Part shown: in pieces, positions 5,077 through 56,354 of the stretch | How the letters are laid out: every line of letters starts with the position of its first letter | Position numbering within the stretch: the first letter of the stretch is position 1 | From: Vibrio sp. JC009 | GTDB lineage: Bacteria > Pseudomonadota > Gammaproteobacteria > Enterobacterales > Vibrionaceae | DNA length: 64,000 nt | NCBI RefSeq assembly: GCF_029016485.1 | Contig: NZ_CP092106.1 | Span: 2,480,001 to 2,544,000, forward strand | Direction of reading: 5' to 3' | Made by a program: the position numbers and the translations under genes | The notes under the pieces: generated by a model | Database searches by the model: none | What the model saw: only the letters and a program-made list of their open reading frames with translations | What the model was told of the DNA's origin: nothing

Positions 5077-5170
5077 CGATAGGGCTATGGGGTGGGCTTC
5101 GCCCTGGGGGGCTATAGGAGGGTAGGAACCCTAAGCCCCTATAGCCCCATTACCTCATAGCCCGATAACC
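5077..5170. repeat. Octamer/core-hairpin intergenic element, copy a
   Basis: Fills the rnhB-dnaE gap. It contains GGGCTATGGGG and TAGCCCC-type units at both ends and, on the minus strand, the core AGGGCGAAGCCC followed by ACCCC (positions about 5091-5110), the same core hairpin as in copies b, e, f, g and h but in reverse orientation and without a long tandem array. Confidence 0.75.
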
Positions 5171-5175
5171 TATAC

Positions 5176-5784
5176 CTACATTAGCCCTAACGCTTTTTTA
5201 ACCGGCTTAAAACTCTTCCTATGCTCCCCAATCACCCCATGCTTTTCAATCGCTTCGAAGTGCGCTTTAGTCGGGTAGCCTTTGTGTTTGGCAAAGCCGA
5301 ATTGTGGGTATTTTGCGTCCAGCTCGATCATCTCCTGATCGCGGATGACTTTAGCAATAATAGATGCTGCGCTTATTTCTGCTACCCGCAGGTCGCCTTT
5401 TACCACCGCTTCACCGGCCATTTTTAGCTCAGGGACCCGGTTGCCGTCGATCAGTACATAGTCAGGGGTAATGGAAAGTCCTTCAACCGCTCTCTGCATT
5501 GCCAGCATGGTGGCGTGGAGAATATTCAGCTCATCAATTTCTGCCGGAGAGCAGCGGCCCACTGACCATGCCAGCGCTTTTTGCTGAATTTCAGGAAACA
5601 GTGCCAGACGCTTTTTGTCTGACAGCTTCTTTGAATCCGTCAGCCCTTCAATGGGATTAGCAGGGTCAAGGATAACCGCAGCTGTGACCACATCGCCCAC
5701 AAGCGGGCCTCTTCCTACCTCATCTACCCCGGCAAAAAGTGTGTAACCCTGAGGGTATTCAAATGGCGGAAGATCTTTAGACAT
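5176..5784 (-). CDS. rnhB: Ribonuclease HII
   Basis: About 202 residues. RNase HII removes ribonucleotides from RNA/DNA hybrids and misincorporated ribonucleotides from DNA. The motif [15 protein letters not shown] near the N-terminus supplies the DE pair of the DEDD active site; [10 protein letters not shown] and [13 protein letters not shown] follow. Adjacent ATGs at 5787 and 5784 are both possible; I chose 5784 because a GGA lies seven bases ahead of it. The start overlaps the end of lpxB by a few bases, so the two are translationally coupled. Confidence 0.95.
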
Positions 5785-6925
5785 CATTTTTTCCAATTAA
5801 ATTTAATACTGCAGTTGCCGCCTGAGTGTCGGCATCTCTTTTAATCCACTGATGCATCTCAGTGAACTTATTAATCACTTCGCTGTTGTCTGAGCTCAGC
5901 AGTCGGTCTGCCTCGGCAAACAGATTGTCTGAATGGCACTCTTCCAGAATGTACTCTTTAACGATTTCCCGCTCAGCAAGAATATTTGGCAGAGAGACAA
6001 ATTCGGTTTTAACCAGCCTTCTGGCAATAAAAGCTGTGATTGGATTGACATTGTAAGCAACCACCATCGGCCTTTTGATCAGCATACACTCAAGTGCAAC
6101 CGTACCTGACGCCAGCATAACTGCGTCCGATGCCTGAATCACTTTTGTTGCCGTTCCGTCCACAAGGGTAAAGTTCAGCTCAGGGGCCAGCTCTTTCCAT
6201 TTTTGCTCAAACTGTTCACGTCGTTTACTGTTTACCAGTGCGACCACAAAACCAAGTTCAGGGTATTTCTGGTTTAGCTTCTGACAGGTTTCGATAAAGG
6301 GCTCGGATAGCATTTTCAGCTCTGCGCCACGGCTGCCCGGCAGTACTGCCAGCCATTTTTTATCCTGCTCAAGAGCCAGTTCTTCCCGTGCCTGCTCTTT
6401 ATCCGAGTGCATCGGAATAGCATCAGCCAGCGTATGGCCAACAAACTCACAGGGCACACCAAATTTGTCACAAAATGCTTTTTCAAACGGCAGGAAAGCC
6501 AGCACCAGATTGGTCGCTTCTTTGATCTTAAAGATACGCTTCTGACGCCATGCCCAGACGGAAGGGCAGACATAGTGAACCGTTTTAATACCGGCCAGTT
6601 TAAGGTCTTTTTCTAAACGGAGATTAAAATCAGGCGCATCAATGCCAATAAAGACATCCGGCGGATTATCGGTAAAGAATTTTACCAGCTCGGCTTTTAC
6701 ATGAAACAGACGGCGGAGGCGGCCAAGGACTTCTACAATCCCCATCACTGCCAGCTCTTCCATATCAAAAAGAGATTTGCAGCCCTGAGCAATCATCTTA
6801 GGACCACCGATCCCTACAAACTCTGCATCAGGATGCTTTTCTTTGATGGCCTTGATCAACCCTTCACCCAGGGTATCTCCGGACAGTTCTCCGGCTACAA
6901 CACCGATTCTTAATGGACGTGTCAT
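5777..6925 (-). CDS. lpxB: Lipid-A-disaccharide synthase
   Basis: 382 residues. LpxB condenses UDP-2,3-diacylglucosamine with lipid X to give the lipid A disaccharide at the inner membrane. Visible family features are the start [21 protein letters not shown], the GIDAPDFN motif (about residues 97-104), and LPGSRGAE in the C-terminal half of the GT19 fold. It is the last of the lpxD-fabZ-lpxA-lpxB run. A GGAAATCACG sequence precedes the ATG, and the heptamer repeat array between lpxA and lpxB ends right at this ribosome-binding region. Confidence 0.97.
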
Positions 6926-6934
6926 CGTGATTTC

Positions 6935-7026
6935 CAGCTGTCAGCTGTCAGCTATCCGCTGTCAGTTCCAGTAAGCAAAACTCTTATTGTTCTCCTTCTG
7001 AAAGCTGACAGCTGAAAGCTGAAAGC
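6935..7026. repeat. AGCTNNN heptamer inverted array, lpxA-lpxB gap
   Basis: Left block 6935-6969 is built of AGCTGTC/AGCTATC heptamers; right block 6998-7026 is built of GCTGAAA/GCTGACA heptamers. The two blocks are largely complementary and enclose about 28 bases, so the transcript of this intercistronic gap can form a long hairpin. The element fills almost the entire space between the lpxA stop and the lpxB ribosome-binding site. Confidence 0.8.
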
Positions 7027-7028
7027 CA

Positions 7029-7817
7029 TTATCGAATAATGCCGCGTTCAGATTTATCCAGAAAATCCAGGAAGAGTTGAACAGCCTTAAATTCTGCCGC
7101 TTCTTTGGCAATCTCAGCCTTGGCTTCTTCCAGTGTATTACCGGAGCGGTACAGAGACTTGTAGGCACGGCGGATTGCGTGGATCTCTTTCTTTTCAAAA
7201 CCACGGCGCTTCAGGCCTTCGATATTGATACCGAAAGGTTCACAGTGGTTACCCTGAGCCATAACGTACGGAGGAACGTCCTGAACCACGATAGAGCCGC
7301 CACCCAGCATACAGTGATCGCCAATATGGCAGAACTGGTGAATTGCGGACATGCCACCAATAATGGCCTGATTACCGATTTTCACATGACCGGCCAGGGT
7401 TGCATTGTTAGCAAAGATACAGCGGTCACCGATAATGCAGTCATGGGCAACATGGGCATTGATCATAAACAGGTTGTCGCTGCCTACTTTTGTGATACCG
7501 GCATCCTGAATGGTTCCACGGTGCATGGTTACGCTTTCACGAATCGTATTCCGGTCACCGATTTCAAGGCGGGTATCTTCACCGGCGTATTTCAGATCCT
7601 GACACTCTTCACCAATTGAAGCGAACTGAAAAATCCGGTTGTCTTCACCAATGGTTGTCGGACCTTTCACAACCACATGAGACAGAAGCTCAGTGCCGGC
7701 ACCAATCTTTACTTTGCTGTCAACAAAGCAGAACGGACCAATTTTTACATTGGCTCCGATAACTGCTCCCTCTTCTACCACCGCTGTTGGGTGGATTTGA
7801 GCGGTTTCATGAATCAT
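7029..7817 (-). CDS. lpxA: UDP-N-acetylglucosamine acyltransferase
   Basis: 262 residues from the ATG at 7817, the usual LpxA size; a longer frame upstream exists but would overlap fabZ. LpxA transfers the first hydroxyacyl chain from ACP to UDP-GlcNAc, the first step of lipid A synthesis. The protein begins [21 protein letters not shown] and consists of left-handed beta-helix hexapeptide repeats; [12 protein letters not shown] carries the catalytic histidine, and an alpha-helical C-terminal domain follows. Its start lies one base downstream of the fabZ stop, indicating coupling within the lpxD-fabZ-lpxA-lpxB operon. Confidence 0.96.
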
Positions 7818-7818
7818 A

Positions 7819-8277
7819 TTAAATCTCTCGACGTGCACACTTAAGGTCAGCAGAACAAACTACTTCACCGTCAACTTTTGCTACACCGGTAAATACAGCG
7901 ATACCGCGTCGCTCTTTGATTAGTTCAACTTCAAGAACCATCTGGTCTCCAGGCATAACCGGCTTGCGGAACTTCGCATTATCAACGCCTGCAAACAGGT
8001 AGAGTTCGTTCTCTCCTGCTTCGCCAAAAGTTTCAAAACCAAGAAGCCCTGTAGCCTGAGCCATGGCTTCAAGAATCAATACGCCAGGGAAAACCGGAAG
8101 CTGAGGGAAATGGCCGGTAAACTGAGGTTCATTAACAGAGACGTTTTTCAGAGCTGTCAGGTACTTACCTTTTTCATAGTCTGTCACTCGGTCAATTAAC
8201 AGAAATGGATAGCGGTGAGGAAGCAGTTCCTTAATTCGGGTGATATCCATTGTTTTCTTTTCAGTAGTCAAAGCCAT
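7819..8277 (-). CDS. fabZ: 3-hydroxyacyl-ACP dehydratase FabZ
   Basis: 152 residues from the ATG at 8277 ([12 protein letters not shown]). FabZ dehydrates beta-hydroxyacyl-ACP in fatty acid elongation. The hotdog-fold motifs [14 protein letters not shown] (with the catalytic His) and [21 protein letters not shown] (with the catalytic Glu) are both intact. An in-frame extension of 18 residues upstream has hydrophobic, non-family sequence and was not used. Located between lpxD and lpxA, the standard arrangement, where acyl-ACP is shared between fatty acid and lipid A synthesis. Confidence 0.96.
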
Positions 8278-8317
8278 ATTCCTATATAAAAAATTAATCT
8301 GTTTGCAAGTATAAACG

Positions 8318-8346
8318 AAAAAGGCCCGCAATTTGCAGACCCTTTG
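8318..8346 (-). terminator. Possible attenuating hairpin between lpxD and fabZ
   Basis: On the minus strand an imperfect hairpin AAAGGGTCTGCA / TGCGGGCCTTT with loop AAT is followed by a short T run. The stem has an internal mismatch loop, so it may be only a weak terminator or a processing site. Confidence 0.35.
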
Positions 8347-8402
8347 AAAAAAACAGCGAAGAACAGTGAGTTAATCCAGTATTCTTCCGAAGTCTGAGTG
8401 CC

Positions 8403-9422
8403 TTAGGATTCGAGCTTCTTCTCAACCTCTTTCAGGCGCTTATTCATATCGTCGATTCTGTGGACCCGGGCAGCCGTTTTGCGCCACTCTTTATTTGGTT
8501 GCAGAGGAATACCCGAAGAGTACACACCCTTCTCATCGATTCCGCGCATCACCATTCCCATACCGGTAATGGTCACGCCATCTGCAATCTCAATATGTCC
8601 GTTAATCACAGTACCGCCACCGATAATACAGTATTTGCCGATCTTAGTGCTGCCGGCGACAATAGTACCTCCGGCCATGGCTGTACCATATCCGATGTGT
8701 ACATTGTGAGCGATTTGTAGCTGGTTATCGAGAATCACATTATCTTCGATAACCGTATCATCCAGTGCGCCACGGTCAATGGTGGTACAGGCACCAATCT
8801 CAACGCGGTTACCGATTTTCACAGAGCCGGTCTGAGGGATTTTCACCCACTCACCTTTCTCATTAGCATAGCCAAAGCCATCAGAGCCAATAACCGTACT
8901 GGACTGAACCAGACAAGACTCACCGATAGCAACATCGTGGTAAACAGAAACATTAGCCCACAGTTTAGTGTTGGCACCAATAGAGGCATTTTTACCAACA
9001 AAGCAACCCGCACCAATTGAGACATTATCACCAAGGACAACGCCGGACTCGATAGTCGCATTTGCACCAACAGAAACATTTTCACCAAGCGTCACATCCC
9101 CGGCAATCACTGCAGAGTCAGAGATACCGGCAGCAGGAGCAGGCGTTGTATCCAATGCCTGAGCTACCTTTGCATACGCCAGGTAAGGATCATCAACAAC
9201 CAGCGCATTAGTCACGCACAGTTCTGCCTCAGACTCTTTTACCATGACAGCAGAAGCCTTACAGTCAGCCAGGTGCTTTTTGTATTTCGGGTTAGAGAGA
9301 AATGTCACCTCTCCCTCACCGGCTTTATCCATGGCTACCACACGAGAGATAACAACAGAATCATCTCCCTGAACAGTGCCACCTACAATTGTTGCTAATT
9401 CTGCAAGAGTATATGCTGTCAT
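8403..9422 (-). CDS. lpxD: UDP-3-O-(3-hydroxyacyl)glucosamine N-acyltransferase
   Basis: 339 residues, usual size. LpxD adds the second hydroxyacyl chain in lipid A synthesis. The N-terminal uridine-binding domain ([18 protein letters not shown]) is followed from about residue 100 by a long series of hexapeptide repeats of a left-handed beta-helix; [17 protein letters not shown] contains the catalytic-site histidine region, and a C-terminal helix ([14 protein letters not shown]) closes the protein. It lies four bases downstream of skp, in the bamA-skp-lpxD order. Confidence 0.97.
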
Positions 9423-9426
9423 AGTG

Positions 9427-9936
9427 TTACTTCAGTTCCGCCAGTACTTTTTCTGTTAGGTTCGCATCCTGTGTTGCATAAACAAGCATGGAACCATCCA
9501 CAACGATGTCATAGCCTTCTTTTTCAGCGACTTTGTCTACCGCAGACTGTACCAGCTTCATCATCTCCTGCTTCGCTTTGATCTCCAGACCTTTTGCTTT
9601 TTTAGCAAAAGCTTCCTGTTTGATCTTACCTTCAGCCTGAAGAGATGAGATTTCAATCTTCAGTTTTTGAATACCCTCGTCACCCAGCAGAGCGCCATCT
9701 CTTTCAATTTTCTGTGCTTTTGTCTTAATTGCAGCACCGATCTTATCCAGTTCAGCTCTGTCATCCTTCAGCTCATTCTGCAGGTCAGTGATGATAGACT
9801 CCCTCTGAGGCAGCTGCTTGATGATATAGTTAGTACCAACATAACCAATCTTCTGCGCTGCTTCTGCCGCGTTGGCAAACAGAGAAGAACTAAGAATAAC
9901 AAGGCCGATACCAGCCGCTTTTACCATCTTTTTCAA
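9427..9936 (-). CDS. skp: Periplasmic chaperone Skp (OmpH)
   Basis: About 169 residues from a TTG start. Skp is a trimeric periplasmic holdase that carries unfolded outer-membrane proteins to BamA. The frame from TTG at 9934-9936 gives [20 protein letters not shown], then ANAAEA, a clear Sec signal peptide; [13 protein letters not shown] follows as in OmpH proteins, then a Lys/Glu-rich coiled-coil tentacle region and the C-terminal [10 protein letters not shown] strand. AAGGAAAT lies eight bases ahead of the TTG, and this start avoids overlap with bamA; an in-frame ATG at 9927 is the alternative. Confidence 0.93.
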
Positions 9937-9949
9937 AGCATATTTCCTT

Positions 9950-12361
9950 TTAGAATGTTCTGCCGATAGTGAAGGTGAAGAACTCTTCATCATCACCTTC
10001 ATATTTTTCAACTGGCTTAGCAATCGAGAAGACTAATGGACCCATAGGAGACATCCATTGTAGTGCCGCACCATAAGAAGAACGATAATTTGTTGGATCT
10101 GAGTAGTCGTAGTAATACTCGTCACCGTAAGCAACATTGTCATCTGACAGGTAGTTAAACTCTGTATCCCAGACACTCGCCATATCGTAGAAGATACTGG
10201 TACGAATCTGACTACGGGTCTCTTCAGATGCAAATGGTGTCGGTACGATCAGCTCAATACTTGCCAGTGCAACGGCGTTACCACCAACAGAGTCGTCTGT
10301 TGCAATGTAGTTCGGGTTGTTGCCGATCCCTTCGTCATACACTGCTTTCGGACCGGCACTGTTAGAGCCAAAGCCACGAAGCGTTGTAAAGCCGCCCGCA
10401 AAGTAGTTCTCATAAAACGGGAACAGGTTGTCATTGCCGTTTTTACTACCGTATCCGTTACCATAACCTAACCGGCCACGCATAAGAAGCGTAAAATCGT
10501 GCTTATCCGTCAACGGGATATACTGTCTGACATCATACTGGGTTTTGAAATAAGGTACGTCAGAACCAGGTGTGGTCATTGTATAAAAAGCTTTCTGGTA
10601 GTTACCTGCTGTCGGGAAGTAGCCCCGGTTAAGGTTGTTACGGGTCCAGGTAAGCGTGACGTCAAAGTCATTTACTATCAGATCGCCACCGTCCATATTC
10701 TCAGCCTGAGCTTCCAGGAACTGCTCAATCTGTACATAGGAATCCAGGTTGGAGATTTTGTTGTAGGTGTAACCTACACCAATTTCAAAACGGTTAAGCT
10801 CATCAAACGGGAAACCCCAGGTTAAGCGGCCACCGATACTTTCGTTGGTATAGTCAACAATACCCGCTTCGGATGCTTCAAACTGGTTAAAGTAGATCTT
10901 ACCACCAAGGCTGACACCATCCAGGTTCCAGTACGGGTCACGGTACTCCAGGCTGACGTTTTTCTGGTAGTCGTTCATCATGGCGCTGACGCCAATCCGG
11001 TTACCCGTTCCGGCAAAGTTATCCTGTTGCAGACCAACCTGGAAACTCATACCAGACTCAGTACCATAGCCAACACCAAAGTTGATGCTGCCTGAGTTCG
11101 CCTCAGAAACGGTGTAAACCAGATCCACCTGATCATCGGTACCCGGAACACGAACGGTCTGAACATTAACCTGATCGAAGAAGCCAAGCCTGTTCAGACG
11201 AGTCTTACCTGTCTCAATGGATTTAGAGTTCAGCCAACTGCCTTCCATCTGACGCATTTCACGACGAAGTACTTCATCTTTAGTGACTGTGTTGCCGGTA
11301 AAACGGATATCCCGTACATAGATACGCTTGCCTGGCTCAACATGGATATTTAGCTTAACCGTCTGCTTCTCATCATCAAACTCAGGAACTGTCGTTACCT
11401 TAGGGTAGGCGTAACCAGCTTCACCCAGAATACGCTTAACATCTTCCTCAAGCTTGGTCACCTGAGAGCCGTTATAAAGATCACCGGGCATAAAGGTAAG
11501 CATGCGCTCAAATTCGGCTTCTTTGCTAATAAGGTTGCCTTTAAAGTCAACACCACTCACCTTGTACTGCTTACCCTCTTCCAGAGTCAAAGTGATGTAA
11601 ACACCTTTTTTATCCGGAGAGATAGCCACCTGAGTAGAGTCCACTTTAAATTTCAGGTAACCCTGATCTAAGTAGTAAGACTTAAGCTTTTCGATATCAG
11701 CCGCCAGAACCTGCTTCTGATACTTATCATTGGCAAGGAAGTTCCACCAGGCTACATCCACATTCAGATCAAAGCGGGATCTCAGCTCATCATCGTCAAA
11801 AATTTCGTTACCGATAAAGTTTATCTGCTGGATCTTAGCCGACACGCCTTCAGTAAATACAAATTTCAGATCAGAACGATTTCGCGGCAGAGGTGTCACA
11901 ACGGCTTTTACTGAAGCGTTGTACTTACCTACGCTGTAATAGAAATCTTCCAGACCTTTTTCTATATTGCTCAGCGTGGTTCGGTCAAGCGCCTCACCAA
12001 CACGAATGCCGGACGCATCCAGATTCTGCTGAAGCTGTTCATCTTCAATCGCTTTATTACCCGAGAATGCGATGCTGGCGATGGTTGGCCGCTCTTTTAC
12101 CTGAACAACCAGTACATCATCATCTCTGAGAACTTTGACGTCCTCATAGTTTCCTGAGCTGTACAGTGCGTTAATGATGTCTGATACACCCTTAGGGTCC
12201 AGAGTATCACCAACCCTGACTGGCATTTTCAGCAAGGCCGCACCCAGTGCAACACGCTGCAGGCCTTCTACCCTGATGTCCTGTACTACAAACTCTTCGG
12301 CACTCTGTACTGCTGTGCTTGCAACAATAAGAGTAGTGAGCAGTAATTGCTTAATAGCCAT
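9950..12361 (-). CDS. bamA: Outer membrane protein assembly factor BamA
   Basis: 803 residues. BamA is the core of the BAM complex that folds beta-barrels into the outer membrane. A signal peptide (MAIKQLLLTTLIVASTAVQS, cut before AEEF) precedes five POTRA domains (to about residue 420) and a 16-strand barrel. The conserved loop motif appears as TTLRGFGSNSAGP (VRGF equivalent), and the protein ends in GRTF with the C-terminal aromatic of outer-membrane proteins. It lies between rseP and skp, matching the envelope-biogenesis cluster. Confidence 0.98.
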   Translation of the reverse strand: MAIKQLLLTTLIVASTAVQSAEEFVVQDIRVEGLQRVALGAALLKMPVRVGDTLDPKGVSDIINALYSSGNYEDVKVLRDDDVLVVQVKERPTIASIAFSGNKAIEDEQLQQNLDASGIRVGEALDRTTLSNIEKGLEDFYYSVGKYNASVKAVVTPLPRNRSDLKFVFTEGVSAKIQQINFIGNEIFDDDELRSRFDLNVDVAWWNFLANDKYQKQVLAADIEKLKSYYLDQGYLKFKVDSTQVAISPDKKGVYITLTLEEGKQYKVSGVDFKGNLISKEAEFERMLTFMPGDLYNGSQVTKLEEDVKRILGEAGYAYPKVTTVPEFDDEKQTVKLNIHVEPGKRIYVRDIRFTGNTVTKDEVLRREMRQMEGSWLNSKSIETGKTRLNRLGFFDQVNVQTVRVPGTDDQVDLVYTVSEANSGSINFGVGYGTESGMSFQVGLQQDNFAGTGNRIGVSAMMNDYQKNVSLEYRDPYWNLDGVSLGGKIYFNQFEASEAGIVDYTNESIGGRLTWGFPFDELNRFEIGVGYTYNKISNLDSYVQIEQFLEAQAENMDGGDLIVNDFDVTLTWTRNNLNRGYFPTAGNYQKAFYTMTTPGSDVPYFKTQYDVRQYIPLTDKHDFTLLMRGRLGYGNGYGSKNGNDNLFPFYENYFAGGFTTLRGFGSNSAGPKAVYDEGIGNNPNYIATDDSVGGNAVALASIELIVPTPFASEETRSQIRTSIFYDMASVWDTEFNYLSDDNVAYGDEYYYDYSDPTNYRSSYGAALQWMSPMGPLVFSIAKPVEKYEGDDEEFFTFTIGRTF

Positions 12362-12428
12362 ACCTGTTCTGATTATTCCTTACTACGTATTCTTTTTTTT
12401 GCCTGCCGGTTCTACCAAAGCGTTGATA

Positions 12429-15890: not shown

Positions 15891-15900
15891 GAGTGTTACC

Positions 15901-18130: not shown

Positions 18131-18240
18131 ACTGGGGGCCCCAAGGCTATGGGGCTATGGGGCTATGGGGCTATGGGGCTATGGAAAGCTTCCCTCATTG
18201 CCCTATCACCCTCAAGGGCGAAGCCCGTCCCTATAGCCCT
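18131..18240. repeat. Octamer/core-hairpin intergenic element, copy b
   Basis: Five tandem GGCTATGG units occupy 18145-18184. They are followed by a 20-base spacer, CCCTATCACCCTC, and the core AGGGCGAAGCCCGTCC (18213-18228) and then CTATAGCCC. The element sits between tsf and pyrH on the minus-strand ribosomal operon, with the G-rich strand on plus. Confidence 0.85.
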
Positions 18241-19248: not shown

Positions 19249-19258
19249 GCTAACTATA

Positions 19259-20091: not shown

Positions 20092-20272
20092 TTTAAAATC
20101 CTCTATGGGGTTAGGCCTCCACGTCCCCCATGAATCCGACCTCTAACATAAAGTTGAAGCACCCCGGAACATGTGTCGAAACGTGTGTGATTTAAAGATA
20201 ATTTGTGTGTTGAAGTGAAAACAGCTTCGCCATCTTTTATCAAAATGAAGAAAACAGTTCTGACTTCGGCGC
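20092..20272 (-). promoter_or_regulatory. rpsB 5' leader (S2 autoregulation type)
   Basis: On the minus strand the 20 bases before the rpsB ATG include AGAGGATTTTAAA, preceded by GGGGGACGTGGAGGCC and a pairing TAACCCCA segment. This matches what I know of the conserved gammaproteobacterial rpsB leader, where S2 represses its own mRNA through a hairpin next to the ribosome-binding site. The leader is about 180 bases if the promoter at 20280 is used. Seen: the motif and pairing. Known from the family: the repression mechanism. Confidence 0.65.
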
Positions 20273-21501: not shown

Positions 21502-21590
21502 CCCGGAAGTCGCATCCGCAATTTCCGGGCCCCCATAACCCTATAACCCTATAACCCTATAACCCTATAACCCTATAACCCTATAACCCA
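21502..21590. repeat. Octamer element, copy c (map-glnD gap)
   Basis: Hairpin CCCGGAA (21502-21508) / TTCCGGG (21523-21529) is followed by seven tandem ATAACCCT units at 21535-21590, the last ending in A. The G-rich strand (AGGGTTAT) is on minus, opposite to copies b, e, f and h. No CGTCC core is present. Confidence 0.85.
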
Positions 21591-28255: not shown

Positions 28256-28300
28256 TTCAGCCATCAGCTATTAGAGGGGAAAGCTGACGGCTGATAGCCT
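28256..28300. repeat. AGCTNNN heptamer inverted pair after yaiI
   Basis: TTTCAGCCATCAGCTATTAG faces AAAGCTGACGGCTGATAGCC across four to five bases. Same family as 6935-7026 and 49523-49677; here it begins four bases after the yaiI stop and may act as a 3' hairpin. Confidence 0.7.
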
Positions 28301-28336
28301 GACTCTTATACACAAATATTAAAGTGACCAGAGAAC

Positions 28337-28525
28337 GGTTCTCCCCCTTGAGTAAAAAAGCCTAACTGGTTGATAAAGTTAACAGAAGGGGGAGTTAGAG
28401 GGGGTTGGTTATACAAAATTTAACTAAATCGTAGAACCTTAAGCCTCGAAGAAACAACCCCTCCCAGCCTCCCCTTCGATGCTACTTCTTCGAAAATCCG
28501 GCCTTTCGAGGCCAAGGGGAGGAGC
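28337..28525. repeat. Two-hairpin GC-rich element, copy 1 (long loops)
   Basis: Four conserved blocks in order: GGTTCTCCCCCTT (28337-28349), AAGGGGGAGTTAGAGGGGG (from 28386), AACCCCTCCCAGCCTCCCC (from 28456), AAGGGGAGGAGC (28514-28525). Blocks 1-2 and 3-4 pair as two hairpins; blocks 2 and 3 can also pair with each other. Loops are 36, 49 and 37 bases, against about 3, 15 and 3 in the copy at 59005-59092. Confidence 0.8.
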
Positions 28526-28552
28526 ATACTTTGACTCCTTACACTTGTGTAA

Positions 28553-28625
28553 ATACCAATCCCAGTAATTATCTGTTCATCCTTGCTTGTCAAAATCGCT
28601 AATAGCTAATTACTGGTATTGGTAT
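28553..28625. repeat. Inverted repeat with ATACCAAT ends
   Basis: ATACCAATCCCAGTAATTA (28553-28571) is complementary to TAATTACTGGTATTGGTAT (28607-28625) except for one position, with a 35-base spacer. It has the look of a small MITE. It ends 18 bases before the DUF2310 gene stop. The 28254-28643 gap otherwise holds only the two repeats listed before it. Confidence 0.7.
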
Positions 28626-28643
28626 AAGAGCAGACTGACAGCT

Positions 28644-36437: not shown

Positions 36438-37211
36438 ATGCCTATCCACTTAGTGATCATCGATGCATTAAACCTGATTCGCCGGGTACACTCTGTGCAG
36501 CCTGATCCCACAGATATAACAAGAACCATAGAGACCACCAAACGGACTCTTAACCGTATTATCTCAGAATCACAGCCGACTCATATTATTGCGGTATTTG
36601 ACCATCACCTGCAGGACAGAGGCTGGCGGGCAGAGATACTGCCCACCTACAAGCAGAACAGAAAGCCGATGCCGGAACCTCTGCTTAACGGCCTGGACAG
36701 CATTCAGGACGCATGGTGGGAGCTGGGCATTGATTCACTACTATCAGAAGGTGATGAAGCCGATGATCTGGTCGCAACACTGGCAGTAAAGGTGGCCGGT
36801 CACGGAGAAAAGGTGACCATAGTCTCCACCGATAAAGGCTACTGCCAGCTTCTGGCTCCCACACTTCAGATCAGAGACTACTTCCAGCACCGCTGGCTGG
36901 ACACTCCGTTTATCGAAAACGAATTCGGCGTCTCCCCCTCACAGCTCGCAGACTACTGGGGCATGACAGGCGTTAGCTCAAGCCAGGTGCCGGGTATCCC
37001 CGGCGTAGGACCAAAAGCAGCCAAAGAGATACTAAACCAGTTCCCGGATATTGAAACTGCGTATAACTCCGAAGAACTTGCGCCGAAATACCGCAAAAAG
37101 TTCGATGAACATATTGAAATGGCGAGGGTGTGTAAGCGGGTTTCTACGCTTAAGACGGATATTGAGCTTGGGTTTAATTTGCAGGATATAAGGTTTACGG
37201 GGAAAGGATAA
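36438..37211 (+). CDS. xni: Flap endonuclease Xni (ExoIX)
   Basis: 257 residues. Xni is related to the 5' nuclease domain of DNA polymerase I and acts on flap DNA. LVIIDALNLIRRVHS, AVFDHHLQDRGWRAEILPTY, EGDEADDLVATLA and STDKGYCQLL supply the acidic metal-binding residues of the FEN fold, and VPGIPGVGPKAAKEIL is the helix-hairpin-helix. Xni enzymes lack one of the lysines found in Pol I, as known for the family. The C-terminus ends 3 bases before a repeat element. Confidence 0.94.
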   Translation: MPIHLVIIDALNLIRRVHSVQPDPTDITRTIETTKRTLNRIISESQPTHIIAVFDHHLQDRGWRAEILPTYKQNRKPMPEPLLNGLDSIQDAWWELGIDSLLSEGDEADDLVATLAVKVAGHGEKVTIVSTDKGYCQLLAPTLQIRDYFQHRWLDTPFIENEFGVSPSQLADYWGMTGVSSSQVPGIPGVGPKAAKEILNQFPDIETAYNSEELAPKYRKKFDEHIEMARVCKRVSTLKTDIELGFNLQDIRFTGKG

Positions 37212-37305
37212 AGAGGGCGATGGGTTATGGGGGCGTTCGCTTCGCTCGCTAGAGGGCAATAGGGTAAGGATCAACCCCATAGCCCCATAGCCCCATAATA
37301 TCCCG
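37206..37305. repeat. Octamer/core-hairpin intergenic element, copy d
   Basis: GGTTATGGGGGCG (37220s) leads to the type II core in reverse orientation (plus strand CGTTCGCTTCGCTCGCTAG at 37235-37253), then GGGCAATAGGG and three CCCCATAG units (37274-37297). It sits between convergent xni and rlmM. Confidence 0.75.
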
Positions 37306-39516: not shown

Positions 39517-39728
39517 CGCAACGAAGCCGGAACGGCATGATTCCTCCTGAATCAATCGGCTTATTGTTGCGATGTTGTGTTTGCAAAACTCAATTTTGAG
39601 TTAGGTAGATTTCTACCAACCTGTTATGTATTTACACCTTAGATATGTAACACATACTTCCTGTATTATTTTTGACCTGTCTGTCAAAAAGATTATTTAT
39701 GCACTGCCTGATGGCGGTGCTTTTTTTT
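39517..39728 (+). ncRNA. gcvB: GcvB small regulatory RNA
   Basis: About 212 bases. It contains GCCGGAACG near the 5' end, GTTGCGATGTTGTGTTTGCA, the GU-rich seed region that matches E. coli GcvB R1, then ACTTCCTGTATT with CCTGTCTGTC, and the terminator GCACTGCC-TGAT-GGCGGTGC followed by eight T residues. These blocks occur in the same order as in E. coli GcvB. It is divergent to gcvA, the conserved position. GcvB is an Hfq-dependent repressor of amino-acid and peptide transporter mRNAs. A TATATT -10 lies at 39505-39510. Ends are estimated to within a few bases. Confidence 0.9.
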
Positions 39729-39740: not shown

Positions 39741-39927
39741 GGGTTATGGGGTTATGGGGTTATGGGGTTATGGGGTTATGGGGTTATGGGGTTATGGGGT
39801 TATGGGGTTATGGGGTTATGGGGTTATGCAAGATTTGATTCGACTGCACATGATGTCAAACTTTTTTAGCTTTTCCCTATAGCCCTATCCCCTAAAGGGC
39901 AAAGCCCGTCCCCATAGCCTATACCCC
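39741..39927. repeat. Octamer/core-hairpin intergenic element, copy e
   Basis: Eleven perfect tandem GGGTTATG units (39741-39828), then a conserved middle (ATGCAAGATTTGATTCGACT, then GCACATGATGTCAAACTT), then CCCTATAGCCCTAT and the core AGGGCAAAGCCCGTCC (39896-39911). Except for array length it is nearly identical to copy f on the other side of thiI, in the same orientation. Confidence 0.95.
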
Positions 39928-39933
39928 AGATTC

Positions 39934-41436: not shown

Positions 41437-41500
41437 AGGTTGCTTCGCTGTACAAAAATCAGGCGCGCGATTATACACGAGTTTGGGTGTCGGAGGAATA

Positions 41501-41886
41501 GGGTTATGGGGTTATGGGGTTATGGGGTTATGGGGTTATGGGGTTATGGGGTTATGGGGTTATGGGGTTATGGGGTTATGGGGTTATGGGGTTATGGGGT
41601 TATGGGGTTATGGGGTTATGGGGTTAGGGGGTTATGGGGTTATGGGGTTATGGGGTTATGGGGTTATGGGGTTATGGGGTTATGGGGTTATGGGGTTATG
41701 GGGTTATGGGGTTATGGGGTTATGGGGTTATGGGGTTATGGGGTTATGGGGTTATGGGGTTATGGGGTTATGGGGTTATGGGGTTATGCAAGATTTGATT
41801 CGACTGCACATAATGTCAAGCTTTTTTAGCCTTTCCCTATAGCCCTATTCCCCTAAAGGGCAAAGCCCGTCCCCATAACCTATACT
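41501..41886. repeat. Octamer/core-hairpin intergenic element, copy f (36-unit array)
   Basis: 288 bases (41501-41788) of tandem GGGTTATG, exactly 36 units, with a single unit change (TTAGGGGG near 41627). The GGGG blocks are spaced by four bases and fit the G-quadruplex pattern many times over. Then follow the same middle, CCCTATAGCCCTAT and core AGGGCAAAGCCCGTCC (about 41856-41871) as in copy e. Reading frames inside the array (MGLWGYGV repeats) are by-products of the period. Confidence 0.97.
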
Positions 41887-41912
41887 ACAGAATCAAAAAA
41901 AAATGGATTGGA

Positions 41913-47028: not shown

Positions 47029-47029
47029 G

Positions 47030-47190
47030 GTGGATGGGGACGGACTTCGTCCTATAGGCCCTGGGCCCTGGGTTGTTCATTGGTACTTTCAGCACTGCAA
47101 TAAAAAAGCTCATCATCACGATGAGCTTTTTTATTGCCTCTTCCCAGGGCCCAGTAGCGAGCGAAGCGAACGTCCTAGGGCCTAAAAAAC
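47030..47190. repeat. CCCTGGG-type element with both core types, copy g
   Basis: Between convergent dxs and fusA2. The left part holds the type I core in reverse (plus strand GGGGACGGACTTCGTCCTAT, 47037-47056), then two CCCTGGG units. In the middle is the 18-bp terminator hairpin. On the right CCCAGGGCCCAGTAGC leads into the type II core TAGCGAGCGAAGCGAACGTC (47155-47174) and CTAGGGCC. So this element flanks a terminator symmetrically with two cores. Confidence 0.8.
47097..47137. terminator. 18-bp perfect bidirectional terminator dxs / fusA2
   Basis: GCAATAAAAAAGCTCATC (47097-47114) is exactly complementary to GATGAGCTTTTTTATTGC (47120-47137), loop ATCAC. Confidence 0.9.
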
Positions 47191-47225
47191 AAAAACCCCC
47201 AACAGCTCTCGCCATCAGGGGTTTC
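47189..47225 (-). terminator. Terminator after the second EF-G gene
   Basis: On the minus strand AAACCCC (47218-47224) pairs with GGGGTTT (47194-47200), with a loop of about 17 bases and TTTGTTTTTT after. Confidence 0.6.
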
Positions 47226-47249
47226 AAAGTTATCAGAATAAAGCGCTAA

Positions 47250-49334: not shown

Positions 49335-49522
49335 TGTCTTACTCTGTTAATAAGGTATAAAAATGCGCGCAGAGTATAACACAATCCGTCAGGACTGATA
49401 CCCCTACGAGCATATGAGTGAAAAAAAATCCATTTATACCAATCCTTCCCACCAATTCAGCGATAATACAGACTGATATGTGGTCAAATAGGTAAATTTA
49501 AGTGTAGTTTGTAATTTTAAAA
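49335..49522 (-). promoter_or_regulatory. fusA2 promoter region
   Basis: On the minus strand TATACT (49373-49378) is followed by CTGCGCGC (49365-49370 region), a GC-rich discriminator resembling that of rpsB. No convincing -35. The remaining gap up to radA holds only the heptamer repeats and A/T-rich sequence. Confidence 0.45.
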
Positions 49523-49677
49523 TAGCTATCAGCTATCAGCTATCAGCGTTACTCTTACTCTATATATGGCAACTATAAATAATATAATTTACATATGAAT
49601 GAATATAAGGACAAAAACCACACAATCAAGGTGTCATATCCAAAAAACTGAAAGCTGACGGCTGATAGCTGAAAGCT
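49523..49677. repeat. AGCTNNN heptamer inverted array, fusA2-radA gap
   Basis: Left block: three AGCTATC units plus AGC (49524-49547). Right block (49648-49677): GCTGAAA GCTGACG GCTGATA GCTGAAA. About 100 bases of A/T-rich sequence lie between. The right block ends at the radA stop codon. Confidence 0.8.
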
Positions 49678-51057: not shown

Positions 51058-51189
51058 CGCTTAAATACCACTCTATTCTATAAAAGGAGATTTAATTAAT
51101 TTTTCTGTCAATATAAACATGATATTTTTACTTAACTTTATAAAATATCTGCCGTTAACCTAGACAAGAAGAACACTCTAACAGAAAAC

Positions 51190-53538
51190 ATGCAGCAATC
51201 TGAAATTCTCTCTCTCGTTGAGCGACTCATCCCCGTGTACGGCGCACCTGATTTTGAGGACGTTCTGACACAACTGACAACTGATGCCCCGCCATCAGCG
51301 AAAGTGCTCGCCAAAATGGAACTGAACAGGATTATGGCCCCCTGTATCAAATCCATCGATCTTCGCGGCAGAGTTCAGGGAGAGTGCAGAGAGTACGAGC
51401 TGGACGGAAGAAAACACTGGCTGGATGATATCGCCCTGAATTCCTACCACAGGAAAATAAAGCGCTTTGGCGGATATACCGAAGGCGTGTGGGAAGCTCT
51501 GGTGAACGGGCGAAAGAACTCCCGGGTTACGCACAATGACTCAAAACACAGAACCAACGAAAGCCTGACCGATCCGGACAGCCCGTTCAAGGTTGAACCC
51601 ATTCATCTGGGGTTCTCACTTAAACGGGTGGAAAAGCGCCTTAAGATGTCTACTCAGATAAAAATTTCGCTGAGTAATGACCTTGAGATACACGCCACCA
51701 GTAATGATATTTCACCATCCGGCCTTAAGCTGAAAGTCCCCAGCGCCTTTGAACTTAACCTTGGGGATACCTTCGATGCCTTTTTTACTGAGCTGCACGA
51801 ACAGACAAACCTTGAAGAGCTCATTCAGGGAATAAGCTACCGGATTATCGGCATTGACGAAAACACGGATAATGAAAGTATCCGCTGGGTACGGGCTATC
51901 CGGCTGACCGAGACGGATGTGATAGACCGCGCCATCATAATTACGCTCGACTCGCATGCGAAAAAGACGCACCACAACAACCAGGATAAAATCATCCGCG
52001 CGCGTACTCACTCCTACGAGAATGCATTTATCCGCCACACCACTGCGCTGCCGCTGTTCTTTAACGGCGCAGAATTAAAATATGCCCTGCTTAATGAAAG
52101 CAATCAGGATACCTGGGAATACTGGCATGATGAAAGAAACCAGCAGTCGCTGGGCCACCTTTTTAATCCCGAAAGGATGGCTGAACTGACCAAGGCGGGT
52201 ATCAGAAACAGCAGTAATGTTATCTATTCCTTTGTCCACCAGCACCAGGGCAAAGACCTGCACTATTCCATGATGCTGCCGGAGGCTAACCGTGAAGAGA
52301 GACAGCTTTTCTGGCATCTGGGTGCAAGACGAAACAGCTGGAAAGTGTTCCGGCTGAATATGTTTGAGTTAAATGCTGAAGAAGTTGCCAACTTTATTAA
52401 CTCCACACCTGAATATGAAAAAAACAAGCTTGAGCTGACTCATGTGGGAATACTGCAGGAGATATCGGGTCTGGAAACACGGCGGGACTACCTTCTGACA
52501 GAAAAGCCAAATATTGAAACCAACTTGCTTAACCGGTTCCGGCATCCCAGAAAAGTGACCGGCGCACCTAAAGGCACCTACTTCGATATTATTTCCCGCA
52601 GAAAAGAGGACAGATACGTTTTCAACTCACCGGTGGAGCTTGTTGTTAACAGTAACCAGGTGGTAAGAGGCAAGACCGTCAACTTCTCCAGTCAGGGATT
52701 AAATATCCGCCTGGCATCACCAATACTGGTCAGCAAAAACGCGCTGGCTCAGGTAAGTTTTATCGAGTTGCAGCTGTACGACTCTTCTACCCCGCTAACC
52801 AAGGTTCCGTACAGTATCGTCAGGGTGTCTCCCGATGGTTTAAACCTGCAGGTAAAAATAGAAGACAGCAGCAGAACCACCCGCACCATTACTTTTCTGA
52901 AAAAGCTGATAACACACAACAAAGAGAAGCTGACTCAGCTTCCGGAGTATTTGCCCAGTGCCGACTTACTGGACAGCATGTATGACAGCGTATTAACCCG
53001 CCTGACAAGCACACCTGTGTATGTCGCCAAAGTCAGGCAGAACCTTCAGCCTGTGGCGATAGGAGTAAACTACCCTCTGGCATCGCATCTGAAAATATTT
53101 AAAACCATCGGACATGCAGAGCACTTTTCTCTGGAGCCGTTTTTTAAGAAAAGAAGCAACCGGCTGCTTAAAATCCCTTTGCGCCCGATAGAGAATCCAA
53201 AGCCTATTTATAGCGAACTCTATCTGGCCGTGATTAAGAACAAAAGCGGCGATATAGAAGCCATTCACACCCGGCTTGATAGTGAATTCAACTCTCTGAA
53301 AGAGAGAATCCTGTTTATCAAGAAATCTAAACAGCTGGGAGAGTTTTTCGCTTTCCGCATATCCGGCCTGCCTGTGACTGCCGATAAATCAGAGCTGCTT
53401 AATAAGAAACTTGCTGAGCTGTCAGGGGTGAGCGCGCACCATGCACGGAATCTTGAGAAAGAGATACGGTCTATGGCGGGGTATTGTGAGTTGATTGATA
53501 TATCGGAAGAAGTGCTTATTCGGTTGGAATTGACGTAG
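51190..53538 (+). CDS. plzC: PilZ domain c-di-GMP receptor, PlzC-like
   Basis: 782 residues, no membrane segment. Two PilZ-like units: the first (about 143-245) has EKRLKMSTQIKISL and NDISPSGLKL, lacking a clean RxxxR; the second (about 468-590) has the full c-di-GMP motif, ISRRKEDRYVF (R471 and R475) plus NFSSQGLNI (N498, S500, G503). Position between radA and serB matches V. cholerae VC2344, which is known as PlzC. It is therefore probably a c-di-GMP receptor, and two GGDEF-type genes are also in this window. The stop codon TAG overlaps the first bases of repeat copy h. Confidence 0.88.
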   Translation: MQQSEILSLVERLIPVYGAPDFEDVLTQLTTDAPPSAKVLAKMELNRIMAPCIKSIDLRGRVQGECREYELDGRKHWLDDIALNSYHRKIKRFGGYTEGVWEALVNGRKNSRVTHNDSKHRTNESLTDPDSPFKVEPIHLGFSLKRVEKRLKMSTQIKISLSNDLEIHATSNDISPSGLKLKVPSAFELNLGDTFDAFFTELHEQTNLEELIQGISYRIIGIDENTDNESIRWVRAIRLTETDVIDRAIIITLDSHAKKTHHNNQDKIIRARTHSYENAFIRHTTALPLFFNGAELKYALLNESNQDTWEYWHDERNQQSLGHLFNPERMAELTKAGIRNSSNVIYSFVHQHQGKDLHYSMMLPEANREERQLFWHLGARRNSWKVFRLNMFELNAEEVANFINSTPEYEKNKLELTHVGILQEISGLETRRDYLLTEKPNIETNLLNRFRHPRKVTGAPKGTYFDIISRRKEDRYVFNSPVELVVNSNQVVRGKTVNFSSQGLNIRLASPILVSKNALAQVSFIELQLYDSSTPLTKVPYSIVRVSPDGLNLQVKIEDSSRTTRTITFLKKLITHNKEKLTQLPEYLPSADLLDSMYDSVLTRLTSTPVYVAKVRQNLQPVAIGVNYPLASHLKIFKTIGHAEHFSLEPFFKKRSNRLLKIPLRPIENPKPIYSELYLAVIKNKSGDIEAIHTRLDSEFNSLKERILFIKKSKQLGEFFAFRISGLPVTADKSELLNKKLAELSGVSAHHARNLEKEIRSMAGYCELIDISEEVLIRLELT

Positions 53539-53683
53539 GGGTTATGGGGTTATGGGGTTATGGGGTTATGGGGTTATGGGGTTATGGGGTTATGCAAAGT
53601 TTGAACAGACTGCGCATGCAGTCAAGCTTTCCCCATAGCCCTATAACCCTCTAGGACGGAGTCCGTCCCTATTAACCCCAACT
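53538..53683. repeat. Octamer/core-hairpin intergenic element, copy h
   Basis: Seven tandem GGGGTTAT units from 53538. The middle is AAGTTTGAACAGACTGCGCA then TGCAGTCAAGCTT, with inner arms GACTGC/GCAGTC and outer AAGTTTGA/TCAAGCTT. Then CCCATAGCCCTATAACCCTCT and core AGGACGGAGTCCGTCC (53653-53668). Compared with e and f the core stem has changed from GGGC/GCCC to GGAC/GTCC, a paired change. Confidence 0.95.
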
Positions 53684-54652
53684 AACCTTCTGCTGCCGAG
53701 CCAAAACCCCCGAAAGAATACAGATAATCCCACCTAACGCCCCAAACCGAACGGCTGTCTGTGCTTGTTCTACTACCTTAGGTTTTGCATGGTAGGCTAC
53801 ACCCAGTCCTGCTGCGCTCATCATGACCAGATCGTTGGCGCCGTCGCCTACTGCGATGGTGTTTTCAATACCGATGCCGTATTTTTCTGCCAGTTCAGCA
53901 ACGATGTCGGCCTTTGTCTGGGCTGTGACTACATCGCCAACAACATTGCCTGTCAGGGTGCCGTCAATAATTTCCAGTACATTGGATTTGGCAAAATCCA
54001 GGTTAAGGTGCGCTTTTACATGATCAGAGAAGTAAGTAAAGCCGCCTGATGCTACCGCTGTTTTCCAGCCGTATGACTGAAGAGTGGCAATTAACTCTTC
54101 CACTTCTGGCATAAAGGGTAAATCTTTACGGACTTCTTCCAGAATAGACTCTGGAGCATCTTTCAAAGTCGCAACACGCTGTCTCAGGCTCTGTTCGAAA
54201 TCCAGCTCGCCCTGCATTGCCCGCTCTGTTACGGCAGAAACTTCCTCGCCTACTCCGGCAAGCTTTGCGATTTCGTCGATGCACTCAATCTGAATTGCGG
54301 TTGAATCCATATCCAGAACAATCAGACCCGGCTTGGACAGATCCGGTACATCGGTCAGATCCGCATAATCGATTTCCAGAGACTGCAGAATCTTCTCATG
54401 CTCCGCAGTAAGCTCACCCGCCATCAGGGCAACGTCGTACTTACCCACTTTCCAGATATCCAGTACCGGGTTGTATTTACCGGTAAAAAAGTCGATATCT
54501 TCAAAGTGAGTCGGAGAGAGATGAGCCGAGAACACAACCCAGCTGGCTTTTTTCTTATCAAGTTGTGAAGAAAACCGGGTTTCAGGTAAACGGTTAATTA
54601 ATGTTGTGTGTTTTTTAATGTCTAGCTTTTTCACTGCTTCCATGCCTGTCAT
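53672..54652 (-). CDS. serB: Phosphoserine phosphatase
   Basis: 326 residues. SerB makes serine from phosphoserine. The HAD nucleophile motif is VLDMDSTAIQIECIDEIA (D114, D116, T118); GGFTYFSDHVKAHL supplies motif II and VGDGANDLVMMSAAGLGVAY motif III. The N-terminal ~100 residues are a regulatory-type extension as in E. coli SerB. The C-terminus ends in a short hydrophobic stretch (LGGIICILSGVLA). Divergent from ytjB, the conserved arrangement. Confidence 0.97.
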   Translation of the reverse strand: MTGMEAVKKLDIKKHTTLINRLPETRFSSQLDKKKASWVVFSAHLSPTHFEDIDFFTGKYNPVLDIWKVGKYDVALMAGELTAEHEKILQSLEIDYADLTDVPDLSKPGLIVLDMDSTAIQIECIDEIAKLAGVGEEVSAVTERAMQGELDFEQSLRQRVATLKDAPESILEEVRKDLPFMPEVEELIATLQSYGWKTAVASGGFTYFSDHVKAHLNLDFAKSNVLEIIDGTLTGNVVGDVVTAQTKADIVAELAEKYGIGIENTIAVGDGANDLVMMSAAGLGVAYHAKPKVVEQAQTAVRFGALGGIICILSGVLARQQKVSWG

Positions 54653-54750
54653 ATTTACAATTGAACCAACGTTACCCTATTGCAATTTCAAAAGGCAAGA
54701 GCCAATATGTCTAAAAAGACAAAAATGATCTTATCAACACTGGTTACACT

Positions 54751-55356
54751 ATGAAAAACTCTCTATTTTCTCTGCGGCTGTTTATAAAAGGTATCGCCAT
54801 TATTTTGCTGATACTCATGTTTCTGTATACAGCGCAAAATAGTGTAGTCATCAGCAAGGGTAACGAAAAAATCCAGAGCCACCAGCTAGAAACGCTTACT
54901 AAGGTTCTTGCCACTCAGGCTGCGCTGTCCGCCAGTGATATGATCGCCAACAATGATCAGGTTCGCCTGTTAAAGCTGACTGACCAGTTGGCAAAAGAAA
55001 AGCTGGTGTTTGATGCCACTATTTATGATGCTGAGGGGGTGAAACTGGCCTCCAGTGAAAATGCGGTTTCAGCAAGAGAGATCCTTGGTCTTGATACACC
55101 TCTTGAAACCGCCAGTATCGGCCGACTTCAGTTGGTTGAACCCGTATTCCACGATAATGCACAAATCGGCTACGTCCGCATCACCTTTGAAAAAGGCCGG
55201 GTAACCGCCTTCTCCGATCACCACTACCGCAACAGCGACCGCTATATGTACACCATGATTTTGATGGGCTTTGCCAGTGGCCTGCTGCTTGCTATGATTT
55301 TAAGACGCAAACGTAAACCGAAGGGTGAGAATTTGCTTTTGAAGCAGGCTAAATAA
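54751..55356 (+). CDS. ytjB: YtjB/SmpA-type membrane protein
   Basis: 201 residues. An N-terminal membrane helix (FIKGIAIILLILMFLYTAQN), a periplasmic domain of about 135 residues, and a second helix (YTMILMGFASGLLLAMIL) followed by a basic tail RRKRKPKG. The divergent position beside serB matches E. coli ytjB (old name smp). Function unknown; overall shape resembles a small periplasmic sensor. Confidence 0.85.
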   Translation: MKNSLFSLRLFIKGIAIILLILMFLYTAQNSVVISKGNEKIQSHQLETLTKVLATQAALSASDMIANNDQVRLLKLTDQLAKEKLVFDATIYDAEGVKLASSENAVSAREILGLDTPLETASIGRLQLVEPVFHDNAQIGYVRITFEKGRVTAFSDHHYRNSDRYMYTMILMGFASGLLLAMILRRKRKPKGENLLLKQAK

Positions 55357-55359
55357 AAG

Positions 55360-55391
55360 GGGCTATAGGGCTATAGGGCTATAGGGCTATA
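55360..55391. repeat. Octamer array, copy i (no core)
   Basis: Four perfect tandem GGGCTATA units starting four bases after the ytjB stop. No CGTCC core follows. Confidence 0.85.
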
Positions 55392-55410
55392 CAATTATGA
55401 CTCTCATTAA

Positions 55411-55441
55411 AAAAGCCAGCAAGTCGAAACTGCTGGCTTTC
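55411..55441. terminator. Bidirectional terminator ytjB / deoD
   Basis: AAAGCCAGCA (55412-55421) is exactly complementary to TGCTGGCTTT (55431-55440), loop of nine bases. Confidence 0.85.
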
Positions 55442-55500
55442 TGATAGCTAATAGCTAATAGCTAATAGCTAATAGCTAATAGCTAATAGCTAATAGCTAA
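55441..55500. repeat. Heptamer array CTAATAG x7 before the deoD stop
   Basis: CTGATAG followed by seven perfect CTAATAG units and CTAA. The array starts at the base of the terminator and ends two bases before the deoD stop codon. No facing block; this is the only locus of the AGCT heptamer family with a one-sided array. Confidence 0.9.
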
Positions 55501-55502
55501 GA

Positions 55503-56222
55503 TTACTGCTTATCACCAATAAGTACAGAATCCAGAGCGATTTCCATCATTTCGTTGAATGTGGTTGCGCGCTCTTCAGATGTTGTCTGCTCACCCGTTT
55601 TGATGTGGTCAGATACAGTACAGATAGCCAGAGCTTTTGCTCCGTATTCAGCAGCAACGCCGTAGATACCAGCCGCTTCCATTTCAACACCAACGATGCC
55701 GTACTTGTCCATTACGTCGAACATTTCAGGATCTGGCGTGTAGAATAGCTCAGCCGAGAACAGGTTACCTACTTTAACGTCGATACCGCGAGCCTTCGCC
55801 GCTTCTTCTGCCGCTTTAACCATGTTGTAGTCAGCGATAGCTGCAAAGTCGTGGTTCTTAAAGCGGATACGGTTTACTTTAGAGTCAGTACAAGCACCCA
55901 TACCGATAACAACGTCACGAACTTTAATGTCTTCGTTTACCGCACCACAGCTACCAACACGGATGATTTTCTTCACACCGTAGTCTTTGATTAGCTCTGT
56001 CACATAGATAGAACAAGACGGGATACCCATACCGTGACCCATTACAGAGATCTTACGGCCTTTATAAGTACCAGTGAAACCGAACATATTACGTACATCA
56101 CATACCTGAACTACGTCTTCCAGGAAAGTCTCTGCAATATATTTTGCGCGTAGCGGGTCACCCGGCATCAGAACAACGTCAGCGAAATCACCCATTTCAG
56201 CGTTAATGTGTGGAGTAGCCAT
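55503..56222 (-). CDS. deoD: Purine nucleoside phosphorylase DeoD
   Basis: 239 residues, exact size of the hexameric DeoD type. It cleaves purine (deoxy)nucleosides with phosphate. [20 protein letters not shown] starts the protein; [19 protein letters not shown] and [18 protein letters not shown] (phosphate and base site) and TVSDHI are visible. Last gene of the nupC-deoCABD run. The 137-base gap to deoB is filled by repeat copy j, so the deoB-deoD transcript carries it. Confidence 0.98.
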
Positions 56223-56261
56223 TAATTAGTTTCCTATTAGTTTTAAATCTTAAGATTAAGG

Positions 56262-56354
56262 GGCCCTGGGTTTCTCGGCCCTGGGTAAAAGATCCTATTC
56301 CCAGGGCCCAGTAGGGAGCGGAGCGACCGTCCCAGGGCCCAGGGCCCAGGGCCT
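56262..56354. repeat. CCCAGGG-type element with type II core, copy j
   Basis: GGGCCCTGGG and GGCCCTGGG on the left, ATTCCCAGGGCCCAGTAGGG leading into core AGCGGAGCGACCGTCC (56317-56332), then three CCCAGGG units. Lies inside the deo operon between deoB and deoD. Confidence 0.85.

Follow-up and report, generated by a model that had tools for sequence, protein, structure and literature searches.

A REP-like family of hairpin cores and 7-8 bp tandem arrays near gene 3' ends in Vibrio sp. JC009

Ten loci in the window

The 64,000-nucleotide stretch of Vibrio sp. JC009 analyzed here, which we call the window (positions 2480001-2544000 of the larger contig, C1), contains ten loci at which tandem arrays of 7-8 bp units occur with or without a short hairpin core. 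As far as seen, the family to which these loci belong works like a REPIN, a doublet of repetitive extragenic palindromic (REP) hairpins. The genome amounts to 5.21 Mb on contigs of 3.32 Mb (C1), 1.88 Mb (C2), and 6.3 kb, and the best named matches to the ThiI protein of the window are those of V. hannami (94%) and V. albus (91%), which indicates a Vibrio near V. hannami. A sequence-only reading had listed the same ten loci, all of which were found at the positions it gave, and the elements sit between the main open reading frames (ORFs). It had also distinguished two core types, and both exist: the type I core has 6 matches in the window at up to 3 mismatches, compared with 0.36 expected, and the type II core has 3, compared with 0.00 expected. 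These nine cores are spread over eight of the ten loci; seven of them end in CGTCC, as that reading had stated for all, whereas those at 5090 and 37231 end in CACCC and CGCCC, respectively.

The element at 5077-5175 lies on the minus strand, with a type I core, AGGGCGAAGCCCACCC, at 5090-5105 and with GGGCTATA-type and CCCCATAG-type units flanking both sides. At 18131-18240, on the plus strand, a (GGGGCTAT)5 array (18145-18184) is followed by a C-rich arm and a core (18215-18230, plus strand). Three further plus-strand elements are built on the unit GGGGTTAT. The first, at 39741-39930 between the small RNA GcvB and thiI, consists of an 11-unit array (39741-39828), a spacer that starts at 39829, an arm, and a core at 39896-39911; the GcvB sequence, at 39517-39728, ends immediately ahead of it. 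The second, at 41501-41890 between a pomB-like gene and thiI, has a 36-copy array (41501-41788), the same spacer, and a core at 41857-41872, and an ORF listed at 41483-41842 consists of the array itself. The third, at 53538-53675, has a seven-unit array (53538-53594) that begins on the final base of a stop codon and is followed by a hairpin spacer, an arm, and a core at 53653-53668. Type II cores occur in the minus-strand element at 37206-37300, which adjoins rlmM (core at 37231-37250, minus strand; CCCCATAG array at 37275-37297), and in the plus-strand element at 56262-56354, which comprises GGCCCTGGG units, a CCCAGGGCC arm, the core (56313-56332), and a CCCAGGG array (56331-56353). The locus at 47030-47182 is an inverted pair, in which a type I core on the minus strand (47038-47053) faces a type II core on the plus strand (47156-47175), with GGCCCTGGG and CCCAGGGCC arms around a terminator-like hairpin; the two types can therefore be two ends of one element.

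The remaining two loci consist of arrays alone, as had been claimed. At 21502-21589, CCCTATAA units occupy 21531-21589, and at 55360-55500 a (GGGCTATA)4 array (55360-55391) is accompanied, across a terminator-like hairpin, by a second array, (ATAGCTA)8 (55444-55500); a core was found at neither. Core-less arrays of 7 bp units, often two facing each other, also occur at 6935-7026 and 49524-49677 (both with AGCTGAT/CTGAAAG-type units) and at 28279-28298, the ATAGCTA array at 55444-55500 being of the same kind. A probable miniature inverted-repeat transposable element occupies about 28299-28640; its end, CTGACTCTTATACACAAA, resembles the outside end of Tn5/IS50, and its interior sequence recurs at 59019-59077 and beside the cores of loci L026 and L034. 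A t44 RNA lies at 20110-20207.

Architecture, copy number, and gene context

The core is a hairpin of the form GGRC-NRA-GYCC, with a 4-bp stem (GGRC/GYCC) and a loop of 3, followed by a GTCC tail; GTTC, GCCC, and rarer tails were also found, and the GGAC form has an alternative 5-bp pairing that includes the tail, GGACG with CGTCC, around a loop of 5. The third stem pair covaries, being A-T in 53 cases, G-C in 39, G-T in 3, and any other combination in 0 (1.42 Mb scanned), in a scan that fixed the other stem letters, the loop-final A, and three tails and that drew part of its sequence from retrieval by a pattern with R and Y at the pair, under which A-C was still admissible. The cores also still align after the arrays have been set aside, as relatedness of the cores would have it.

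Read in the sense of the core, an element runs from a G-rich 7-8 bp array through a spacer and a C-rich arm to the core and a few further C-rich units. Of the 111 catalogued cores, 40 have an array of at least 3 perfect unit copies no more than 160 bp away on their inner side and 1 has one on its outer side; on the core strand, 38 of the 40 arrays are rich in G. Within a locus, the arm is complementary to the array: across 49 loci, of which 40 are own and 9 belong to other species, the mean fit of the arm to its own array unit is 7.02, compared with 5.90 for shuffled pairings, the highest of 2000 shuffles reaching 6.86. Of the 32 perfect arrays found along 744 kb of C1, 30 have a period of 7-8, and the units are mostly 8 bp long. 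G-quadruplex formation was rejected as a common principle, since the units AGCTATC, AGGCATA, CTCTAGCT, and CAATGAGT have no G runs of three. In most elements a second core is replaced by the array, and some carry an inverted core in place of the array.

The pattern GGRCNRAGYCCGTCC matches exactly at 57 places in the genome, of which 56 lie on C1 and a single one on C2; this bears out the expectation that cores are enriched beyond the window; at up to one mismatch there are 111 matches compared with 22 for the reversed pattern, which served as the control, and a narrower exact pattern gives 53 compared with 1 for its reversal. C2 makes up 36% of the genome and carries some arrays of the same units but only that one exact core, a contrast based on the exact-match whole-genome count; the C1 stretches studied otherwise were partly picked near known matches, so densities within them are biased. 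In 1.42 Mb of C1, 15 loci of differing gene context have in common a related spacer of ~45 nt together with the core, the arrays at these loci running from 3 to 36 copies of GGGGTTAT or GGGGCTAT. A related spacer at 15 unrelated sites indicates that a module of spacer, arm, and core has been copied and dispersed. Elsewhere, four cores 128 bp apart at G000:C1:660188-660586 (L019-L022) appear as a tandem amplification of the core with its flank.

Statistics on gene position and strand used 95 of the 111 catalogued cores, 10 having been dropped because they lie within an ORF or have no neighboring gene and 6 because they lie near rRNA (four short probes); one core, L016 (G000:C1:385591), adjoins the apparent start of a 16S rRNA gene. 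The complementary reading of the core, GGACGGACTTCGTCC, runs in the sense of the upstream gene after its stop codon, usually at a distance of 7-30 nt. Cores that lie within 60 bp past a stop codon and antisense to the gene, with the GGAC reading in the gene sense, number 57 of the 95, and 56 of these are within 30 bp. Where the core-side gene is within 500 bp, it points in the expected direction in 75 cases and in the opposite direction in 14.

GC skew in the sampled stretches flips sign at 1.60-1.72 Mb of C1 and at the C1 ends, which places the terminus near 1.66 Mb. The GGAC reading is in leading-strand sense for 46 of the 56 exact C1 cores and for 68 of the 95 usable cores (p = 3e-5); the lagging-strand template is in most cases the strand that reads GGAC. 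Gene direction is balanced in convergent slots, and there leading-strand sense holds for 22 of 30 single cores (p = 0.016) and for 17 of the 21 tailed by GTCC (p = 0.007). Arrays that adjoin a core show the bias (35 of 39), whereas core-less arrays do not (8 of 18, with 10 more neutral).

Related elements in other Vibrio genomes

The narrower exact pattern was found in 18 of 296 genomes of the taxonomic family, the 17 other than that of JC009 carrying 1 to 5 copies each; two of the family matches, L098 and L099, seem by reading to be coding. Beyond the family, 12 of 139 other genomes of the class have one exact match each and 15 match the reversed pattern, so the matches there are attributable to chance. 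Among 12 named Vibrio genomes searched, with one genome per species here and in all species comparisons, V. hannami has 8 matches, V. tapetis 4, and the other ten none. The same core stands beside GGGTTAC units in V. hannami, GGGTTAC and AGGCATA in V. tapetis, AGGCATA in another Vibrio, and often GGTTTCA repeats in another genus.

The DNA syntenic with V. hannami offers 23 own element loci for comparison with 8 in V. hannami, core-less arrays, some with other units, being counted as elements. Six of the eight V. hannami loci each share a slot with an own locus, with differing units, and two are not co-located; counted from the own side, 6 of the 23 loci have a V. hannami partner. The slot of the 5077 element holds a (CCTGTAA)n array in V. 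hannami, that at 18131 an element flipped in orientation, and that at 37206 an element with another unit, arrays being present there also in Vibrio loci L170 and L193. The slot at 39741 is occupied in V. hannami as well, and arrays stand in it in five further Vibrio loci; the slots at 21502, 41501, 53538, and 55360 have no element in V. hannami. Own loci with AGGTTGC, GGTTGCA, and GCAGGTG units have a V. hannami-like core context (CCTGTA or CCTGCA before the core), which indicates that element lineages coexist. This coexistence and the flipped element at 18131 led us to reject a single inherited element, rewritten over time, as the sole account.

Around thiI in 80 other Vibrio loci, 9 of 10 perfect arrays have a period of 7-8. 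Ahead of thiI, no 7-8 bp array was found in these 80 loci, the sequences of 24 of which were inspected by eye. In V. maerlii (L170), both convergent slots contain a hairpin spacer and a CTCTAGCT array with a hairpin that, judged by eye, is core-like.

Origin and known repeat systems

We are evenly divided on whether the family consists of short, non-autonomous REPIN-like elements at gene 3' ends, with arrays grown by slippage and a mobilizer other than a Pfam-recognized Y1 protein or REP-associated tyrosine transposase (RAYT). Such elements would spread as hairpins of single-stranded DNA where the lagging-strand template lies exposed close to the ends of genes. Their arrays would lengthen afterwards by slippage, as perfect arrays of widely differing length suggest, giving each lineage its own unit, and the transcribed element may provide the upstream gene with a structured 3' end in RNA. 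IS200/IS605 and REP systems move as single-stranded DNA, and by comparison with them the hairpin and the bias toward the lagging template point to a single-strand route as the likely one.

The sequence-only reading had considered mobilization by a RAYT encoded elsewhere in the genome. This candidate finds no support, as PF01797 (Y1_Tnp) has no match at E <= 0.001 in the JC009 genome, in a search that gave matches in 5 of 14 control genomes, and the mobilizing protein would not be a Y1/RAYT protein that Pfam recognizes. Seven further genomes with cores were tested, and six of them (V. hannami G296, V. tapetis G303, G057, G024, G260, and G204) also have no match. A reverse transcriptase as the writer of the arrays was rejected as well, the sole RVT_1 match being a 490-residue ORF at G000:C1:2948859 (L304) that by reading, without a family search, is group II intron-like. 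So was a helper gene amid neighboring cores, as the ORFs between 27 close core pairs are housekeeping-like by reading (no family search).

Several observations weigh against REPIN-like elements of this kind. Slot sharing with V. hannami exceeds chance and is unpredicted by random insertion, and the single exact core on C2 (1 of 57) is left unexplained. For 38 of the 95 cores no stop codon lies within 60 bp in the expected orientation, and in 14 cases the gene on the core side points the opposite way. No mobilizer was found, PF01797 being absent and the genes amid neighboring cores ordinary by reading; nor was a target duplication or exact boundary established, although no systematic look for target duplication was made.

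A serious rival, though in our estimate a less likely one, holds that the elements are selected 3'-end devices, that is, terminator-like or mRNA-end structures, mostly in convergent slots, that are repeatedly born or rebuilt and whose sequence may vary freely provided that array, arm, and hairpin still pair. Placement speaks for such devices: of the nine arrays with a period of 7-8 around thiI in the 80 Vibrio loci, eight stand in the two convergent slots occupied by elements in JC009, and six of eight syntenic V. hannami loci share a slot with an own locus; in a slot-class-matched test, which left out the one locus of the eight that had no assignable slot, 5 of 7 coincide, with P = 0.0004, 0.004, and 0.011 as the slot definition is tightened. 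So does folding in part of the elements, since hairpin spacers with A/T flanks give RNA z scores of -4.19 at 55391 and -6.63 at 47073 and two V. hannami spacers give -4.29 and -1.98; two of three whole elements give DNA z scores of -6.67 and -6.72, the third (37215-37300, z = -1.41) folding no better than shuffles. However, the spacer common to 15 loci forms no hairpin beyond shuffles (z = 0.43 for the copy tested, 39828-39879), and its presence in related form at 15 unrelated sites implies copying. Selection alone, moreover, does not yield a replication-strand bias in convergent slots, and the 41501 element stands ahead of thiI between genes of the same direction.

A further reading, which we put forward with considerable doubt, sees in these elements a class of their own at gene 3' ends, mobile or self-rebuilding. 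In it, a fixed hairpin core would seed an iterated stem of 7-8 bp units or land in one; each lineage would exchange the unit as a whole but keep slot, polarity, and architecture, and a single-strand mechanism would operate without a RAYT. It is improbable that the elements are REPs moved by a RAYT since lost from the lineage or acting from a plasmid or other transient DNA. The hairpin with its unpaired tag, the inverted pairs, and the 3'-end location are REP features (PMC3733652, accessible part), and G274, with one exact core, has five PF01797 matches; against this, PF01797 is absent from JC009 and from most core-bearing genomes tested, two genomes (V. albus G297, and G298) have PF01797 matches yet no exact cores, and one element stretch had no match in plasmid or phage records, which led us to reject plasmid or phage carriage of that stretch. 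It is very improbable that the arrays are simply products of slippage in G-rich heptamers or octamers and the core an unrelated neighbor, for although a period of 7-8 dominates both on C1 and around thiI, core-less arrays exist, and similar arrays occur elsewhere (Rehm et al., PMC4692102, accessible part), the core is enriched in its own right and the 40-to-1 sidedness of the arrays and the fit of arm to array reflect a fixed linkage of array, arm, and core.

Genome-wide enrichment, the covarying stem, inverted pairs, and the 3'-end location uphold the earlier proposal of a REP-like, dispersed, intergenic, hairpin-based family. In the wide sense of REP, the elements are dispersed, extragenic, short, palindromic, and present in many copies, and 12 of the 95 cores form inverted hairpin pairs with the tags outside, less than 250 bp apart, as in REPINs or bacterial interspersed mosaic elements; the locus at 47030 is an example. 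According to the accessible part of PMC3733652, GTAG REPs bear an unpaired GTAG at one hairpin end and are associated with a Y1 (RAYT) gene, often repeat-flanked; they resemble the present family in their short hairpins, unpaired tag, inverted pairs, and location for the most part behind genes, in slots that are convergent or of one direction. The elements described here differ from them in the tag (GTCC/GGAC), the 4-bp stem and loop of 3, the attached 7-8 bp array, and a genome without a PF01797 match, features that place the family outside the GTAG REP/RAYT family.

CGTC-tagged REPs, including dRS3 of Neisseria, are similar in having CGTC at one end, inverted dimers, and no dedicated transposase, and their stems of 8-9 bp start with A-T pairs and enclose loops of 4-5 (PMC3733652, accessible part). 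The stem here is 4 bp (5 in the alternative register) without an A-T start and the loop is 3, which sets the family outside the CGTC families. Hairpins of the type CGTCATTCC...GGAAT, seen at G000:C1 about 2331048-2331210, in the V. hannami stretch, and in L120, do resemble published CGTC REPs and are distinct from the family reported here. In dRS3 the CGTC is located 5' of the hairpin, whereas the CGTCC of the present cores is 3' of it. Cyanobacterial short tandemly repeated repetitive (STRR) heptamers and small dispersed repeats likewise present several heptamer spellings per genome and small dispersed units. The G-rich heptamers GGGNATC / GGGGAYT of Xanthomonas and Nostoc are 7 bp tandem units in intergenic positions near stop codons, a pattern that the present arrays resemble in part, and no hairpin core is described with them in the accessible part of PMC4692102; here, in contrast, 8 bp units are common and several units, including some of the relatives', lack G runs. 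The family was not found described in the open literature on Vibrio REPs, tandem repeats, RAYTs, or heptamer and octamer repeats (subscription journals were not covered), and the accessible part of PMC3733652 contains no word starting with Vibrio.

One polar element here combines REP hairpins with G-rich heptamer arrays, two repeat classes known from separate descriptions, and REP-like dispersal occurs in genomes in which no Y1 transposase was found. Because species with different units hold elements in common slots, one can test whether repeats of this sort are parasites, selected terminators, or both.

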